This document shows positions 8,946 through 23,635 of a DNA stretch of 32,615 nt, piece by piece. The notes beneath the pieces were generated by a model, which did not search any database, was not told the DNA's origin, and saw nothing but the letters and a program-made list of their open reading frames with translations. Source of the stretch: a bacterium (GTDB lineage Bacteria; Krumholzibacteriota; Krumholzibacteriia; JACNKJ01); contig VGXI01000015.1 of the NCBI GenBank assembly GCA_016873475.1, positions 1-32,615 on the forward strand, written 5' to 3'. How positions within the stretch are numbered: position 1 is the first letter of the stretch; every line of letters begins with the position of its first letter. Both the position numbers and the translations under genes were made by a program.

Positions 8946-10841
8946 TCATCGCCGGAGCGCAGCCTCGATCGCGGCCCGCAGGTCGGGCGGGGGCGAGAGC
9001 GCGAGCGCCGCCTCGAGCGCCGCGCGGGCCTCCGTGTGGTCGCCCCGCGCAGCGAGCGCCTCGCCGAGCGCATAGGAAAGGAATGGATCGCCGGGATGGC
9101 GGCGCGCGGCGGCCCGACAGGCGGCGATCAGCGCCTCCGGATCGCGCTGCCGCGACAGCGCCTGCAGGTAGAAGTGCCGCGCCAGATCACCTCCGGGCGG
9201 CTGGGCCTGGGCGCGGGCGAAAGCCTCGAGGGCGCTTTCCAGGTTTCCGCTATCCATCTGCGCCAGAGCCTCGGAAACCAGGTAGCGTGGGTTCGGTGAG
9301 GCGGCATATGCGCTGCGCAGGGCAGCAATCTCCCCCTGCAGATCGCCGCGGCGACGGTGATGCATGGAGAGTAACTCATAGCAGTAGCCGGCGCCCATCT
9401 CGTCGTAGGCGAGTGAGCGCTCGTAGCGCTGCACCGATCGCTCGGCGTGCGCGTTCACGCCGATCCAGGGCAGAACGATGCCCGCGGCCAGCCCCAAGCT
9501 CGCAGCGGTGACGCGGCCCAGCGTTTCGCGGCTGGCCGGCTCTGCAGCCCGGCGGCGCAGCCAGGCGAGCGCGGGCGCTGCAAGGCCGAGTGCCGGTAGC
9601 GCAAAGAGGTCCCAATCGCGCGTCATGCCCAGCGCGGGCCGAAAGAGGAGCAAGAAGAGCAGGCAGGGCAGCGCAAGTGATCCGGTGAAAGACCCCAGGC
9701 GTCGCCAGGCCGCGACATCCGCGCCGTTCAGCGCTGGGCCAGCGGGTGAATCCGCAGTTCCGGCGCGCCGATGCAGCATGAGGCTGGCGCACATCAGCAC
9801 CGGCGCCCAGGGCAGGACGAGCAGGAGCTGATTGGCGACGTCGGCACCGTGCGCGGCCGAGAGGAGGCCGTACTCCGACTCCCCACCCTGGAGGCCCAGC
9901 AGGTGCTTGCTCGATGGAGAAGCCGAATAGAGCGCGGCGAGGGCCGCGAGAGACGCGGCCCCGACGGCGGCCTGCGCCCAGCGCAGGCCCCGGGGGCTGA
10001 GCCGCATGCGTGTTGCAGCGAAGAGGATCACTGCCGAAGGAAGCAGCAAGAGCGCCTGCAAGTGCATGCCGATCGCGAGCAGTACGGCGCCCAAAGCTGG
10101 CCAGGGCGATCCGCCTCCGCGTATCGCCTTCGCCGCGCTCACGGCGTAGACTGCCGCGCAGAGCAGCATCGCCGTGTAGGTCTCGACGTAGCCGCAGAAC
10201 AGCACGAGGGCTCCAGTGAGCGCCGTCGAGATCTGGATGCTTCCGCCTTCGTGTCCCGCCGCGGCGGCGCGGCGAGCCTCGGCAAGCAGCAGGGCGATGA
10301 GCAGTCCGCCGAGCAGCGCGTGCAGAGCCTGCCAGCCGAGGATCGCGTCGTCCAGACCCAGGAGCTGCGCGCCCTTGCCGGCGGCGTAGGCAAGGACCGT
10401 GGTCAGCGGAGCCAGCGAAGCGCGCAGCCCGTACTGGAGCGTGGAAAGGAGCGTCGTATCGGGGCTGCTGACGAGCTCCCGCAGCAGCGCCGCCTGGAAC
10501 TGCCCGTCGCCCAGCAGCAGCGTCGACGAGCGCAGGCTCCAGAAGAGCAGGGTGGCCGCGAGGGCTCCCAGGGGGACGATCGCGCGCCCCGCCAGCGGTC
10601 TTGCAGCGGAGAAGGACACCATGCGGTTCCAGGCAGCGGACAGCGCACGGCTTGCCCGTGGATGCATGAGCAGGGCGATCCCCACTAGCGTGGCAGCGCG
10701 AAGCCAGGGTGGATAGTAGGCGAGATGGTCGATCCCCCATAGCCGCGCCTCCGGCAGGAAGGACGCGACCGCGAGGATCGCCAGGAGCGTCGCCTGGGGA
10801 AGCAGGATGGACCGCGGCGGCGGATTGTGGGGCAGTCTCAC
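8946..10841 (-). CDS. Multi-pass membrane protein with C-terminal TPR domain
   Basis: I place the start at the GTG at 10841, giving 631 residues, because it overlaps the stop of a well-initiated 45-aa ORF (GTGA, 10838-10841). Upstream codons in this frame have no ribosome binding site and an implausible composition. About the first 450 residues hold ten or so hydrophobic segments (LATLLFWSLRSST, CGYVETYTAMLLCAAVY, LLFRPALGMTRDWDLF). The arrangement resembles GT-C/PMT-like or O-antigen-ligase-like membrane enzymes, but I see no decisive catalytic motif. From about 470 onward TPR-like repeats follow (AYDEMGAGYCYELL, ALAQMDSGNLESALEAFARA, ALGEALAARGDHTEAR), probably in the periplasm. The function is unknown. 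Confidence 0.75.
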   Translation of the reverse strand: MRLPHNPPPRSILLPQATLLAILAVASFLPEARLWGIDHLAYYPPWLRAATLVGIALLMHPRASRALSAAWNRMVSFSAARPLAGRAIVPLGALAATLLFWSLRSSTLLLGDGQFQAALLRELVSSPDTTLLSTLQYGLRASLAPLTTVLAYAAGKGAQLLGLDDAILGWQALHALLGGLLIALLLAEARRAAAAGHEGGSIQISTALTGALVLFCGYVETYTAMLLCAAVYAVSAAKAIRGGGSPWPALGAVLLAIGMHLQALLLLPSAVILFAATRMRLSPRGLRWAQAAVGAASLAALAALYSASPSSKHLLGLQGGESEYGLLSAAHGADVANQLLLVLPWAPVLMCASLMLHRRAGTADSPAGPALNGADVAAWRRLGSFTGSLALPCLLFLLLFRPALGMTRDWDLFALPALGLAAPALAWLRRRAAEPASRETLGRVTAASLGLAAGIVLPWIGVNAHAERSVQRYERSLAYDEMGAGYCYELLSMHHRRRGDLQGEIAALRSAYAASPNPRYLVSEALAQMDSGNLESALEAFARAQAQPPGGDLARHFYLQALSRQRDPEALIAACRAAARRHPGDPFLSYALGEALAARGDHTEARAALEAALALSPPPDLRAAIEAALRR

Positions 10842-17162: not shown

Positions 17163-19571
17163 TCAGCGGGTCAGCACCAGCTTGCGTTCCCAGCTCCCGG
17201 CCGGCGTGTGCAGCCGCACCAGGTAGAGGCCGCTGGCCAGCGGGTGGCCCTTGTCGTCGCGGCCGTCCCAGCTCAGGTTCTGCTCGCCGGCGGCCAGGGG
17301 CCCGTCGTGCAGCAGGCGCAGGCGGCGCCCCTTGAGGTCGTAGATCGCCAGGCGCGCGGGGCCTGGCGCACCCAGGCTGAGGCGCAGGGTGGTCTGCGGA
17401 TTGAAGGGGTTGGGATAGGCGTCGAGGCGGCCGGCCGCCAGCGCGGCGCCGCTCGCGGGCAGCGTGAGCGTGCGCAGCAGGGTTTCCTGGCCGTAGAGGT
17501 CGCGCTCGATGAGGCGATAGCTGAGCGCAGCCGCCGGCGCCTCGGCATCGAGGAAGCTGAAGCTCGGCCCACCGGTCAGTGGCAGCGAGGTCAGGCGACG
17601 CCAGGCGCCTTCGCCCTCGCGCCGCTCGATGAGGAAGCCCGCGCTCTCGGACTCCCAGGCCACCCCCCAGCGCAACCAGACGCCCGCGGCCGCGCGCTCG
17701 GCGCGGAACCAGGCGAGGAAAACAGGGATCGCCTCGTCGCCCAGAACAGCGACGCCGTTGCGGTCGTCGGCGACGAAGATGTGCGAGCCGGCGACCGCCG
17801 CGTCCAGGGCGCGCCCGCCGGTGTCGTAGTAGCCGGCTTCCGTCGGGTGCGCGGGATCGCTGACATCGATCACGCGCAGGCCGTCGCCGTAGTCGGAGAC
17901 GTAGGCGAAGGGCCCTGCGACGTTCACCTTGCGCGCCGAGTCGATGGTGTCGTAGTAGCCCACCTCCACTGGATTGGCCGCATCGCTGATGTCCACGATG
18001 CGCAGGCCGCGGCCGTAGGCGGCGACATAGGCATAGCTGCCGTTCACGTCCACGCCCCAGGCTGCGTCGACGAGCACGAGGCCACCCAGTTCGATCGGCG
18101 CGTCCGGATTGCTGATGTCGATGAGGCGCAGTCCCTGCGGGCCGTCGGCGACGCAGGCCAGGTTGCCCTGCACGGCGACGTCGTAGGCGTAGCCCGATGT
18201 GTTCACGCTGCCGCGGCGGACCGGCGCAGTGGGCGTGCTGACATCGACGAGAATTAGCCCCCCCTCCGAAGCCGCCACGCAGGCGATATTGCCGCTGAGC
18301 GCAATGGCGCGCGCGGCGGCGCTGCTCAGCGAGAGACTCGCGAGCAGGCTCGGGTGCGAGCGATCGCTGATGCTCACCACCTTGATGCCCGGCGTGTAGT
18401 CCGCCAGATAGGCGATATCGCCGGCGACGGCCACGTCGTGGACGTAGCCCGGCGTGTCCAGGCGCGCGATGCGCTGGACTGCGACTGGATTGCCGATGGA
18501 CAGCACGATCAGCCCCAGCCGATTGCCGGCAATGTAGGCGAACGCGCCGTCGGTGGCGATGCCCTGGCAGTAGTCGCCCGTTTCGAGGGTGGCCACCGTC
18601 ACCGGGTTGCTCGCGTTTGCAAGATCGATCGCCACGAGCCCCCCGCCCCAGTCGGCCACCCAGGCGTACCCGCCGCCGACATGCACACCGTAGGCCGCCA
18701 CGGGCGTGTTCTCCGTGCTCACCAGCGTGGGCGCGGCCGGGTTGCTGACGTTGATCACGACGAGGCCGTCGCTGTCGTCGGCCACGTAGGCCAGGGTGTC
18801 GACGACCTCGACTTCCCAGGCGAAGCTGACGGTGTCGTAGAAGCCGACCTCGTAGGGCGCCGTCGGATCGGCAACGCTGAGGATGCGCAGGCCCGCGTTC
18901 TGGTCGGCCACGTAGGCCAGGGTGTCGACGACCTCCACGCGGAAGGCGCCGCCCGGCGTGTCGTAGAAGCCGATCTCCACCGGCTGCGTGGGATCGCTGA
19001 TGTCGACGATGCGCAGGCCCGCGCTCCAGTCGGCCACGTAGGCCAGCGTGTCGACGGCGCAGACCCCGTGCGCGCGGTCGGGCGTGTTGAGCACTCCCAG
19101 CGTGACGGGATGCGCGGGATCGGCAACGCTCACGATGCGCAGGCCGTCGAAGTACTCGGCGAGCAGCACGAGCGTATCGCTCACGGCGACGTCGTAGGTG
19201 TACTGCACCGTCGCGGAGCGGCCGACCTCGACCGGCTGCATGGGATCGGAGACGTCGATGATGCGCAAACCGTCCGTCCATGCGCTCGTGTAGACGTAGT
19301 CGCCGGCCTGATCCATGCCGAGGGTCGGCCCCGGCACGGCGACCTGCCCGAGGGTCATCGGGCTCGCGGGATTGCTGACATCGGCGATCGAGAGCGAGCC
19401 GCCGTTGCCGTAGTAGAGGATCCCCGCGTCCCAGTTCGCGCCATAGCAGGGCCCGTCGGGCCAGCGCGAAAGCATCAGCAGGTTCGCGCTGTCGCCGGTG
19501 TCGCGCTCCTGGGCCGGGGCTGCGAGGGGAAGGCTGGCGAGCAAAACGAGGGCAAAGATGCTGCGCTTCAC
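17163..19571 (-). CDS. Secreted LVIVD-repeat propeller with FlgD-like sorting tail
   Basis: The start is the GTG at 19571, with GAGG six bases upstream, giving 802 residues. A signal peptide (MKRSIFALVLLASLPLAAPA) precedes about 14 LVIVD repeats of some 42 residues (pattern AYVADWSAGLRIVDISDP), expected to build a beta-propeller. Some neighbouring repeats are nearly identical in DNA at a 126-bp period (around 18781, 18907 and 19033). The last 90 residues form a FlgD/Por-secretion-like domain (LDAYPNPFNPQTTLRLSL, LSWDGRDDKGHPLASGLYL, KLVLTR). Such tails direct proteins of Bacteroidetes-related bacteria through type IX-like secretion. The protein should end up outside the cell. Its ligand is unknown. 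Confidence 0.88.
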   Translation of the reverse strand: MKRSIFALVLLASLPLAAPAQERDTGDSANLLMLSRWPDGPCYGANWDAGILYYGNGGSLSIADVSNPASPMTLGQVAVPGPTLGMDQAGDYVYTSAWTDGLRIIDVSDPMQPVEVGRSATVQYTYDVAVSDTLVLLAEYFDGLRIVSVADPAHPVTLGVLNTPDRAHGVCAVDTLAYVADWSAGLRIVDISDPTQPVEIGFYDTPGGAFRVEVVDTLAYVADQNAGLRILSVADPTAPYEVGFYDTVSFAWEVEVVDTLAYVADDSDGLVVINVSNPAAPTLVSTENTPVAAYGVHVGGGYAWVADWGGGLVAIDLANASNPVTVATLETGDYCQGIATDGAFAYIAGNRLGLIVLSIGNPVAVQRIARLDTPGYVHDVAVAGDIAYLADYTPGIKVVSISDRSHPSLLASLSLSSAAARAIALSGNIACVAASEGGLILVDVSTPTAPVRRGSVNTSGYAYDVAVQGNLACVADGPQGLRLIDISNPDAPIELGGLVLVDAAWGVDVNGSYAYVAAYGRGLRIVDISDAANPVEVGYYDTIDSARKVNVAGPFAYVSDYGDGLRVIDVSDPAHPTEAGYYDTGGRALDAAVAGSHIFVADDRNGVAVLGDEAIPVFLAWFRAERAAAGVWLRWGVAWESESAGFLIERREGEGAWRRLTSLPLTGGPSFSFLDAEAPAAALSYRLIERDLYGQETLLRTLTLPASGAALAAGRLDAYPNPFNPQTTLRLSLGAPGPARLAIYDLKGRRLRLLHDGPLAAGEQNLSWDGRDDKGHPLASGLYLVRLHTPAGSWERKLVLTR

Positions 19572-19945: not shown

Positions 19946-22900
19946 GTGACGCGCATGGACTTCGTGCACCTGAACGTCCACAGCGCCTACTCGCTGCTGG
20001 CCGGCACGCTGAAGCCCGAGGCGATCCCCGCCCTGGCGCGGCGCCGCGGCTTTGGCGCGCTGGCGCTCACCGACACGGACGGCCTCTTCGCCGCCGTGGC
20101 CTTCCAGCAGGCCTGCGCGCGCGAGGGCCTGCACGGCGTGCTCGGCGTCGAGCTCACGCGGCCGCGCCAGCGGCGCGAGGCCGCGCTGCCCGCGCCGCTG
20201 CTGCCCGAGTTGCCCGCGCCGGCCGTGGCCGACGGCGAGGAGGCGGAGTCCCCGCGCGAGCTGGGCGGCTTCGCGCGCGAGCGCCCCGCCGGGCCGGGCG
20301 ACGCGCGGCATCGCGCCACGCTGCTCGCCCGCAGCGAGGCCGGCTATCGCCTGCTCGGCGAGCTGATCAGCACGCGGCATCGCGATCCCGCCTTCGAGCT
20401 GGAGGCCGCGCTCGCCGCCGCGCTGGACTCGGGCGAGCTCTATCTGCTCTGTGCGGGCGAAGGGCTCCTGCGCGCGCTCGCGCCCCGCGAGCACGCGCGC
20501 GCGGTGCGCGGGGCGCGCCTCTTCGTGGAACTGCGGCCGGGGCGGGGCACGGCCGCACAGCTCGGGCTCCAGGCGCGCCTCGCCCTCGCCGAGGCGCTCG
20601 GCCTGCCGGCCGTGGTGACGGGCGGCGTCTTCTTCGCCGAGCCCGCCGACCACGAACTCCACCGCCTGCTCTCGGCGATGCGCATGAACTGCACGGAGCC
20701 CGCGCTGCCCACGGACGCCGCCGCGCCGGCCACGGCCTGGCTGATGGACGAGCCCGCCCTGCGCGGCGCGCTCGGCCTCGCCCCCGGGGGCGGGTTGCAG
20801 GGCGCGGCCGGGCGCGAGGCCGCCCCCGGGGGCGGGTTGCAGGGCGCGGCTGGGCGCGAGGCAGCCCCCGGGGGCGGGTCCCGCGCCCTCGCGGATCCGC
20901 GCCTGGAGCGCGCCCTCGCCGCCAGCGCGGCCATCGCCGCGGATTGCCAAGTGCGCATCCCCCTCGGCCGGCCGCGGCCGCCGCGCTTCAACTTGCCACC
21001 GGGGCCGGACGGCCGGCCCAGCCACCCCGACGCCTTCCTCTATCGCCTCGCGCACGAGGGCCTGCGCGAGCGGCTCGGCCTCGCCCCCGGCGACAGCGAC
21101 ACCCGCGCCCGCCGCACCCTGGCCGCGCTGCGCCGCGAGCTGCACGTGATCCGCCGCCGCGAAGTGTCGGCCTACTTCCTCATCGCCTGGGACCTGGTGC
21201 GCTACGGCAGCAGTCGCGGGCTCGCGAGCCTGGGTCGCGGCAGCGCGGCGGGCAGCCTGGTGTCCTTTGCGCTGGGCATCACGCACGTGAATCCGCTGGA
21301 GAACGGGCTCTACTTCGAGCGCTTCCTCAACCTGGAGCGCGCGGGGCTGCCCGACTTCGACATCGACTTCGGCTCGGCGGCCCGCTACGAGATCCTCGAC
21401 TACGCCTTCCGCCGCTACGGCCGCGAGTCCACGGCGATGATCGGCACCTACCAGACCTTCCGCCCCCGCGGCGCCTTCCGCCGGCTGGTGGCGGCCCTCG
21501 GCCTGGACGAGACGCTCTGGGACGCCCGCATCAAGCTGCTGCCGCACTGGGGCAGTTGCGCCACCCTGCGCCAGCAGCTCAAAGAGCACCCGAAGAGCCG
21601 CCACCTCGATCTCGCCACGGACGACTGGCCGCGCCTGCTCGATCTCGCCGCGCGCCTGGACGAGCTGCCCCAGCACCTGGGCACGCACCCCTGCGGCATC
21701 GTCATCGCGCCGGGGCCGATCGCGCACTTCGTGCCCGTGCAGCCGGGCGCGCAGGGCTTGGCGATCACGCAGTGGGACATGCACGGCGTCGAGGCGGCGG
21801 GCCTGATCAAGATGGACATCCTCGGCCAGCGCGGGCTGGCCGTGATCGACGCCACCAGCGCCCGCGTGCGCGAGAACTTCGGGCGCGCGCCGCGTCTGGC
21901 CGGCGACCCGCCCCCGGGGGCGGGTCCCACTGCCGTGCGGCGGGGGGCGCGCACGCAGCGCGGCGAGGCGGCGGACGCGGTGAACCCCTTCACCGATCCC
22001 GACACGCGCGCCCTGCTCGCGCGGGGCGCCAGCGAGGGCTGTTTCTATATAGAGAGCCCGATCATGATGCAGATCCTCCGTCAAGCCCGCTGCGAGGAGT
22101 TCGAGACGCTGACCGCGCTGTCCTCGATCATCCGTCCCGGCGTGAGCAACTACGGCGGCAAGCGCGACTACCTGATGCGCCACCGCGGCGAGGAGCCGGT
22201 CCGTTTGCTTCACCCGCTTCTCGAGCCGCTGCTGCGCGACACGCACGGCTGCCTCATCTACCAGGAGCAGGTGATGCGCGTGCTGCAAGTCATGGGCGGC
22301 ATGACGCTGGGCGAGGCCGACGCCTTTCGCAAGATCATGTCGGGCAAGGGCGGCGGCGACGCGAAGGCCTTCGAGGAGCGCTTCTTGGTTGGGGCGCTGA
22401 CGCGCTTGCAGCTGGCAGGCGAAACGGAGGAGGAGGCCGGGCGCATCGCGCGCGAGCTGGGCCGGCAGGTGGCCAGCTTCGCCGGCTACGCCTTCTGCAA
22501 GGCGCACAGCGCGAGCTTCGCGCGCGAGAGCTTCGAGAGCGCCTACTGGAAGGCGCACTACCCCGCCGAGTTCATGGCCTCGGTGATCGAGGAGCGCGGC
22601 GGCTACTACAGCACGGCCGAGTACGTGGAGGAGTCGCGTCGCCTCGGCCTCGCGCTGCTGCCGCCGCACGTGAACGCGGGCACGCTGCGCAGTCTCGGCA
22701 CCTCGAACGGCGCGCCGACCCGCGATCCTGCGGGCGACGCGGGACTCCCCCCGCGCGCGCCGCGCGACCCGGCCGTGCCGCGGGGGCGCCTGCGCATCGG
22801 GCTCTCATTTATGCAGGGCGTGCGCGAAGCGGCGCTCGCGTGGCTCGCCGAGGAAGGCGCGCGGCGGCCCTTCGTCGCCCTGCGCGAGCTGGTGGACCGC

Positions 22901-23635
22901 GCGCGGGCTGCGGGCGGCAACACGGCGCCGCGGCGCTACGAGCTGGCGCGGCTGGCGCGCGTGGGCGCGCTCGATGGCTTGGCGATTGGCGGCGCGCCCG
23001 AGCGCGCGGACGATCGCGGCAGCGCCGGCCGCGGCGCACCCGCCCCCGGGGGCGGGTCGGAGCGGGCTGCGTTGCTCGAGGCGCTCGCCGCGCTCTGGCC
23101 CGAGGCCACGGCGGCCAAGGCCAACACCGAGGCCTTTGCGCCGATCGATTGGCCCGCGGCCGGCGCCGACGCCGAGGCCATCCTGCGCGCGCGGGCCCGG
23201 CTCGAGCTGGGCGGGCTGGGCTTCACGCCGTCGCTGCACCCGCTCTTGCTGTCGCCGGTCTTCGCGGGCAACGGCAGCGGGCGCCTCACGGCCGCGGCGC
23301 TCACCGCCCGCGGGGCAGCGCTCGCTTCGCGCGAGCGCGTGGACCTGGGCCGCGTCGCGCTGCACGGCGTCAAGGTGGCCGGCAAGACGACGCGCACCGA
23401 GAAGGACCAGCGCCTGATGGCCTTCGTCACCTTCTCCGACGAGACGGGCATCTTCGAGACGGTCTTCTACCCCGAGGACTACGCGCGCCTCGCGCGGCGG
23501 CTGCGCGGGCTGGGGCCCTTTCGCGTGGAGGGGCGGGCGCTGGTCGAACTCGGCGAGCTGCTCGTGGAGGTGAAGGAGATCCGGATGCTTGAGGCGAGCA
23601 GTCAGAGAGCGGCGCCCGTTCACCTTCCGGCCTAG
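19946..23635 (+). CDS. DnaE-type DNA polymerase III alpha subunit (accessory/DnaE2-like)
   Basis: A 1229-aa C-family polymerase from the GTG at 19946. The ATG at 19955 gives the same protein less three residues. The PHP domain comes first (VHLNVHSAYSLLAG, ALTDTDGLF). The polymerase core has GRGSAAGS and the catalytic PDFDIDF with Asp472 and Asp474, then THPCGIVIAPGPIAHFVP, LIKMDILGQRGL and FAGYAFCKAHSASFA. A C-terminal OB fold follows (HGVKVAGKTTRTEKDQRLMA). The usual tau-binding tail of replicative DnaE is missing, which favours a lesion-bypass or accessory role, although imuA/imuB genes are not adjacent. Three loops have been extended by a GC-rich palindromic repeat. It converges on the DUF4143 ATPase gene and both stops share one CTAG. 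Confidence 0.9.
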   Translation: MTRMDFVHLNVHSAYSLLAGTLKPEAIPALARRRGFGALALTDTDGLFAAVAFQQACAREGLHGVLGVELTRPRQRREAALPAPLLPELPAPAVADGEEAESPRELGGFARERPAGPGDARHRATLLARSEAGYRLLGELISTRHRDPAFELEAALAAALDSGELYLLCAGEGLLRALAPREHARAVRGARLFVELRPGRGTAAQLGLQARLALAEALGLPAVVTGGVFFAEPADHELHRLLSAMRMNCTEPALPTDAAAPATAWLMDEPALRGALGLAPGGGLQGAAGREAAPGGGLQGAAGREAAPGGGSRALADPRLERALAASAAIAADCQVRIPLGRPRPPRFNLPPGPDGRPSHPDAFLYRLAHEGLRERLGLAPGDSDTRARRTLAALRRELHVIRRREVSAYFLIAWDLVRYGSSRGLASLGRGSAAGSLVSFALGITHVNPLENGLYFERFLNLERAGLPDFDIDFGSAARYEILDYAFRRYGRESTAMIGTYQTFRPRGAFRRLVAALGLDETLWDARIKLLPHWGSCATLRQQLKEHPKSRHLDLATDDWPRLLDLAARLDELPQHLGTHPCGIVIAPGPIAHFVPVQPGAQGLAITQWDMHGVEAAGLIKMDILGQRGLAVIDATSARVRENFGRAPRLAGDPPPGAGPTAVRRGARTQRGEAADAVNPFTDPDTRALLARGASEGCFYIESPIMMQILRQARCEEFETLTALSSIIRPGVSNYGGKRDYLMRHRGEEPVRLLHPLLEPLLRDTHGCLIYQEQVMRVLQVMGGMTLGEADAFRKIMSGKGGGDAKAFEERFLVGALTRLQLAGETEEEAGRIARELGRQVASFAGYAFCKAHSASFARESFESAYWKAHYPAEFMASVIEERGGYYSTAEYVEESRRLGLALLPPHVNAGTLRSLGTSNGAPTRDPAGDAGLPPRAPRDPAVPRGRLRIGLSFMQGVREAALAWLAEEGARRPFVALRELVDRARAAGGNTAPRRYELARLARVGALDGLAIGGAPERADDRGSAGRGAPAPGGGSERAALLEALAALWPEATAAKANTEAFAPIDWPAAGADAEAILRARARLELGGLGFTPSLHPLLLSPVFAGNGSGRLTAAALTARGAALASRERVDLGRVALHGVKVAGKTTRTEKDQRLMAFVTFSDETGIFETVFYPEDYARLARRLRGLGPFRVEGRALVELGELLVEVKEIRMLEASSQRAAPVHLPA
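20780..20879. repeat. 42-bp tandem repeat with GC-rich palindrome inside polymerase gene
   Basis: GCCCCCGGGGGCGGGT occurs at 20780, 20822 and 20864, with a near-identical 42-bp unit between copies. It encodes two and a half copies of a 14-residue unit (APGGGLQGAAGREA, residues 279-311) that looks like an unstructured insertion after the PHP domain. Confidence 0.85.
21906..21925. repeat. GC-rich palindrome, copy 4
   Basis: A perfect 20-bp palindrome, ACCCGCCCCCGGGGGCGGGT, read here in a different codon frame (DPPPGAGP) from the other copies. It sits in a loop that is poorly conserved in the family. Confidence 0.8.
23038..23057. repeat. GC-rich palindrome, copy 5
   Basis: The same perfect 20-bp palindrome as at 21906, encoding APAPGGGS near the C-terminal part of the polymerase. 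The flanks share nothing with the other copies. Confidence 0.8.

Follow-up and report, generated by a model that had tools for sequence, protein, structure and literature searches.

A dispersed 12-bp GC-rich palindrome with an exact core and graded flanks in a Krumholzibacteriota genome and its dnaE2-type polymerase gene

Rickettsia palindromic elements, roughly 100–150 bp long and present as decayed copies, are read as extra peptide inside proteins, and the Noc binding sites (NBS) and matS sites are likewise palindromic and located inside genes. NBS measure 16 bp (PMC8429893, PMC4331003), and matS, the site of MatP, is a 13-bp sequence with 23 copies in 800 kb (PMC3330122). The highly iterated palindromes (HIPs) of cyanobacteria have a 5–8-bp core and occur at about 500–2500 per Mb, and one-off sequences of HIP1 are reported to be common in many genomes (PMC4390886). 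REPs are 20–40-bp extragenic repeats that carry a GTAG or CGTC tag and are associated with RAYTs (PMC3733652).

The palindrome described here resembles each of these systems in part. With HIP1 and the alternate HIPs it shares a perfect GC-rich palindromic form, gross over-representation, genic as well as intergenic copies, palindromic extensions and lineage specificity. Like NBS and matS, it provides tens of short strict-motif sites scattered over the chromosome, and like the REP/RAYT repeats it is a small dispersed palindrome. As in the Rickettsia elements, palindromic DNA is translated as additional peptide at tolerant protein positions, although here the unit is 12 bp long and exact. In exact-string and topic searches of the literature, we found no description of the motif in bacteria.

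Palindrome copies in the polymerase gene

The window, that is, the whole stretch of 32,615 nucleotides analysed here, is contig 15 of a 3.64-Mb genome in 425 contigs (completeness 95.6%, contamination 5%). It carries a dnaE2/dnaE-type error-prone DNA polymerase III alpha gene (19946..23635, + strand) that encodes 1229 aa from a GTG start (alternatively ATG at 19955). The product contains the Pfam domains PHP, DNA_pol3_alpha and DNA_pol3_finger, matches the NCBIfam polc superfamily model above that model's cut-off and has homologues in Krumholzibacteriota MAGs. All five palindrome copies lie inside this gene. The 16-mer GCCCCCGGGGGCGGGT starts at 20780, 20822, 20864, 21910 and 23042, an exact match at each of the five positions reported in a preliminary description of the locus, and the 12-mer GCCCCCGGGGGC has no further exact copy in the window, as had also been stated there. 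A single one-mismatch relative lies at 9986, so that matches with at most one mismatch number six in the window, versus a maximum of four in shuffled windows.

Copies 1 (20780..20791, flanks CCTC and GGGT), 2 (20822..20833) and 3 (20864..20875, left flank GGCA) match GCCCCCGGGGGC exactly in phase 0, where copy 1 encodes APGG. They belong to one 42-bp tandem duplication (20779..20878), for which a repeat search returned a spacing of 42 and two full units 98% identical; copy 2 falls in the second unit and copy 3 in a partial third. The gene therefore holds three independent sites rather than five, and to speak of five insertions is an overstatement. Copy 4 (21905..21926, core 21910–21921) is a 22-bp perfect palindrome, GACCCGCCCCCGGGGGCGGGTC, in phase 2, and copy 5 (23038..23057, core 23042–23053) is a 20-bp perfect palindrome, ACCCGCCCCCGGGGGCGGGT, in phase 0, in agreement with the earlier account of the last two copies as full palindromes. 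Since the copies are read in two frames, four as APGG (phase 0) and one as PPPGA (phase 2), it is the DNA and not the protein that is repeated, as first proposed.

Abundance and form across the genome

Genome-wide, GCCCCCGGGGGC has 65 exact copies (~18 per Mb), versus one copy of a reversed-letter control and a chance expectation of about one to three when scaled to the whole genome. The comparison with chance that the preliminary description had called for thus came out in its favour at the level of the 12-mer. The exact 20-mer itself occurs only four times in the whole genome and is absent from viral contigs; invariance is limited to a 12-bp unit, around which the flanks are graded. The 12-mer was observed 38 times in an 801-kb sample versus 0.2–0.7 expected (Markov orders 1–6). 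This sample was partly chosen for site-bearing contigs, and the expectations rest on it whereas the count of 65 does not. GCCCCCGGGGGC is the commonest palindromic 12-mer of the sample and, together with its overlaps, ranks first among all 10-, 12- and 14-mers. We put the genuine motif copies at about 60 in 3.6 Mb.

Could the copies reflect chance, or a protein-level effect of APGG/PPPGA-rich linkers at 71% GC? A few fit this explanation: exact cores at conserved protein positions in Rnf (PPGAF, C41) and in an FeS-assembly protein (APGG, C25:21253) lack the flank consensus and are expected chance matches, explained by the conserved protein. However, the Markov expectations given above, the occurrence of neighbouring sequences such as GCCCCGGGGC at expected counts and the existence of intergenic copies all speak against it, and we regard it as scarcely credible. 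Chance and codon effects were ruled out by Markov models of order 0–7 together with the reversed control, and a scaffold-join artefact by the absence of N from any retrieved site locus.

The core behaves in an all-or-none manner. All 36 one-mismatch variants pooled were seen 15 times versus ~13 expected in the 801-kb sample (both strands: 30 versus 25.7), and the enrichment of such variants by which a DNA-uptake drive would be recognized was not observed. Along the G-C(a)-G(b)-C run-length series, clear enrichment was found at a=b=5 only, which rules out slippage in GC runs; no spacer variants of the core were enriched, which rules out a loop-bearing hairpin. Only one of the one-mismatch sequences, GCCACCGGGGGC at C19:395, has motif-like flanks on both sides, making it the sole plausible decayed copy. 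A decaying insert would lose core letters as well as flank letters, and core losses are practically absent.

The consensus around the core is RSYC-GCCCCCGGGGGC-GRSY, a 20-bp degenerate palindrome. Reading outward, the flank positions are G (91%), G/A (R, 92%), G/C (S, 90%) and T/C (Y, 76%), with composition near background past position 4; GRSY is found on 60% of arms versus 10% of the sequences that follow GGGGGC runs elsewhere. Variation in one arm of a site is nearly independent of that in the other, matches being in slight excess at positions 2–4 (P = 0.025). Outside the consensus the arms are not mirrored above chance (positions 5–12, P = 0.09), and inverted duplication of a half-site was rejected on this basis. 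Graded symmetric flanks with independent arms best fit the site of a dimeric factor; the all-or-none core best fits a very recent 12-bp insertion burst.

Other sequences were noticed in the same sample. A second exact palindrome, TTGCCACGTGGCAA, has five copies in 801 kb (L022:1536, which is contig 25:13374; L066:7084; L072:2952; L075:3716; L080:7710), with arms of up to 30 bp in all, and its 12-mer core TGCCACGTGGCA was observed five times versus about 0 expected. One copy lies 35 bp away from a GCCCCCGGGGGC site, and the centre, CACGTG, is reminiscent of parS. The enriched 12–14-mers GTTGAAGGGATT and TGGGACGGCCGCGA seem to be stretches that encode NPFNP and WDGRD, two motifs of the C-terminal FlgD-like sorting domains that abound in the genome (examples at L064 and in the window's FlgD-type gene near 17163–17300, − strand).

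Placement of the sites and comparison with relatives

At locus level, we examined 50 of the 65 sites. About half lie inside well-supported genes and the remainder in intergenic DNA or doubtful frames, a split that we made ourselves by judging frames, codon-position GC and Pfam domains. The genic sites occupy linkers or termini of functionally unrelated proteins: they are found before and after the oligomerisation domain of CarB, between the ATPase lid and the helix-turn-helix of an NtrC-type regulator, in the linker of an RpiB-DeoC fusion and at the C-terminus of a nucleoside phosphorylase. Some copies directly follow stop codons (C6:96, C33:21094). The sites are also clustered, 27 of 47 having a neighbour within 5 kb versus 7.0 expected and a maximum of 19 in 5000 simulations, which used interpolated lengths for some contigs. 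Contigs C25 and C106 have 83 bp in common at their ends; joined there, they would hold 11 sites within ~14 kb. Contig 6:1–108 (L017) and contig 33 near 21094 (L023) share 108 identical bases that end 1 bp past the palindrome; beyond them the two contigs diverge, then reach 90% similarity again ~90 and ~690 bp on. The pair may reflect either strain variation or gene duplication, an indel having arisen next to the palindrome.

The motif is restricted to this lineage, the 14-mer CGCCCCCGGGGGCG having 56 copies in this genome versus 0–2 in each of 79 other genomes of the phylum. One genome of the same class (G029) carries the 12-mer core at 21 places, with AAG/CTT flanks, and lacks the 14-mer; judging from the 15 copies read (L115, L140–L153), these look like a terminator hairpin family of G029 and a separate phenomenon.

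Alignment of polymerase homologues placed all five copies within family-variable loops, which bears out the preliminary description. The nearest DnaE2 homologue, from a same-family genome (G001), is 67% identical over its full length and has zero palindrome copies. It is too distant for a comparison of empty sites; loops 1 and 2 are present in it, but no palindrome lies in them. Loop 2 (copy 4) is only 2 aa shorter there, and part of the left arm of copy 4 codes for DPP, common to the G001 loop; loop 3 (copy 5) is 13 aa shorter. In more distant family members, the DnaE2 loops are mostly missing. Homologues with the same loops but no palindrome, named at the outset as evidence against the preliminary interpretation, are represented by G001 for two of the three. 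Because G001 has these two loops without it, the loops are older than the palindrome at no fewer than two of the three places, and the palindrome came to lie where the sequence was tolerant.

These lengths bear on a reading in which a tiny mobile or copied palindrome, of 12 bp or slightly more, burst recently into RSYC|GRSY-like targets; the symmetric flanks would then reflect target preference, the missing decayed copies youth, and the clusters local hopping. Consistent with it are the all-or-none core with its one plausible decayed copy in matching flanks, the position of the copies in loops, linkers, termini and intergenic DNA, the near absence of the motif from the nearest genomes, and the shorter homologues at DnaE2 loop 3 (13 aa), DnaE2 loop 1 (15 aa) and the CarB linker (11 aa). 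However, the small difference at loop 2 and its shared DPP do not agree with it, insert length is not fixed, and 91% G at the first flank position is strong for mere target preference. No Y1 transposase was found in the genome, and a direct-repeat scan of 46 sites for target-site duplication gave nothing above multiple-testing noise; we know of no mechanism that inserts 12 bp. We consider such a recent burst possible but unlikely. Somewhat more doubtful is the specific version in which the 12-bp palindrome recently copied itself as a unit into RSYC|GRSY targets, adding tetra- to pentapeptides (APGG or PPPGA). If true, a self-copying 12-bp palindrome would be a mobile DNA unit that adds peptides to the loops and linkers of many proteins and, to our knowledge, one much smaller than any described.

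Candidate machineries and a tentative recognition motif

A HIP1-type palindrome, arising and maintained through biased mismatch repair or methylation of the core, would account for a GC-rich palindrome that is over-represented, has palindromic extensions and occurs in genic and intergenic DNA of one lineage (cf. PMC4390886). The core contains no A, however, and so permits m5C or m4C only, and we found no C5-methyltransferase (PF00145) in this 95.6% complete genome. Three proteins match PF01555, two with DPPF/DPPY and the third partial and without a visible catalytic tetrapeptide; they look adenine-type, all matching such models only below cut-off, and adenine-type methyltransferases cannot act on a core that lacks A. 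In addition, the core measures 12 bp, one-off sequences are not enriched here, and the density of ~18 per Mb contrasts with about 500–2500 per Mb for HIPs, which makes this explanation improbable. On contig 113 (L172:1153–3952), a gene for a Type III-like DNA methyltransferase (DPPY) precedes another open frame, which may be TcmP-like; this locus is possibly a defence island.

The preliminary description regarded the palindrome as REP-like. REP/BIME-type repeats or intrinsic-terminator hairpins would match a palindrome that can fold into a stem capped by a CCGG loop and that in some copies lies right after a stop, and the core copies of G029 look terminator-like. Unlike REPs, however, the motif has a loop-less perfect 12-bp core and no tag, is often intragenic and is exact, with practically no decayed copies. 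It also lacks a T-run and target duplication, RNA folding around copies 1–3 was no better than in shuffles (z −0.6), and the Y1/RAYT transposase family (PF01797) has 0 matches in the 95.6% complete genome. We therefore abandon the REP-like designation, and hold the REP or terminator explanation to be very improbable.

The likeness to NBS and matS also has its limits: here the core is all G+C, and the genome has a single ParB_N match and no Noc-type ParB paralogue. A parS-like palindrome, ACGTTTCACGTGAAACGT (L060:13497, contig 24), lies ~1 kb from the sole parB gene (contig 24:12270–12548) and likely marks the origin region; no GCCCCCGGGGGC was found in the 20 kb of this region that were read. 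We thus file the palindrome under none of the three classes: not HIP, given methyltransferase content and density; not Noc/NBS, given the missing paralogue; and not REP, given transposase, location and form.

Our preferred reading, to which we tentatively assign a probability of roughly 45%, is that the palindrome is a recognition motif, dispersed and specific to this lineage, for a putative dimeric DNA-binding factor. Such a homodimeric factor would bind the 20-bp site and read each half-site independently, and the core would stay exact since the factor demands all 12 bp. As the sites are genic and intergenic, clustered and in unrelated genes, the factor would act at the scale of the whole chromosome, on its organisation or segregation, much like Noc–NBS or MatP–matS, rather than controlling single genes. 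Genic copies would survive where APGG or PPPGA does no harm to the protein, and hence in loops, linkers and termini. Copy number, exactness, flank pattern, clustering, restriction to the lineage and the tolerant positions are observed; the protein ligand, its dimeric nature and its chromosome-scale role are what we infer. We prefer the recognition motif to a recent 12-bp insertion, and the data do not separate the two.

A motif whose 12 bases are all exact, whose over-representation amounts to one to two orders of magnitude and which is confined to one lineage of the uncultured phylum Krumholzibacteriota points to a sequence-specific process that standard annotation misses, be it DNA binding at the scale of the chromosome or the copying of a minimal unit. 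Although it is a motif at the level of DNA, it leaves a trace in protein, in the form of APGG and PPPGA linkers.
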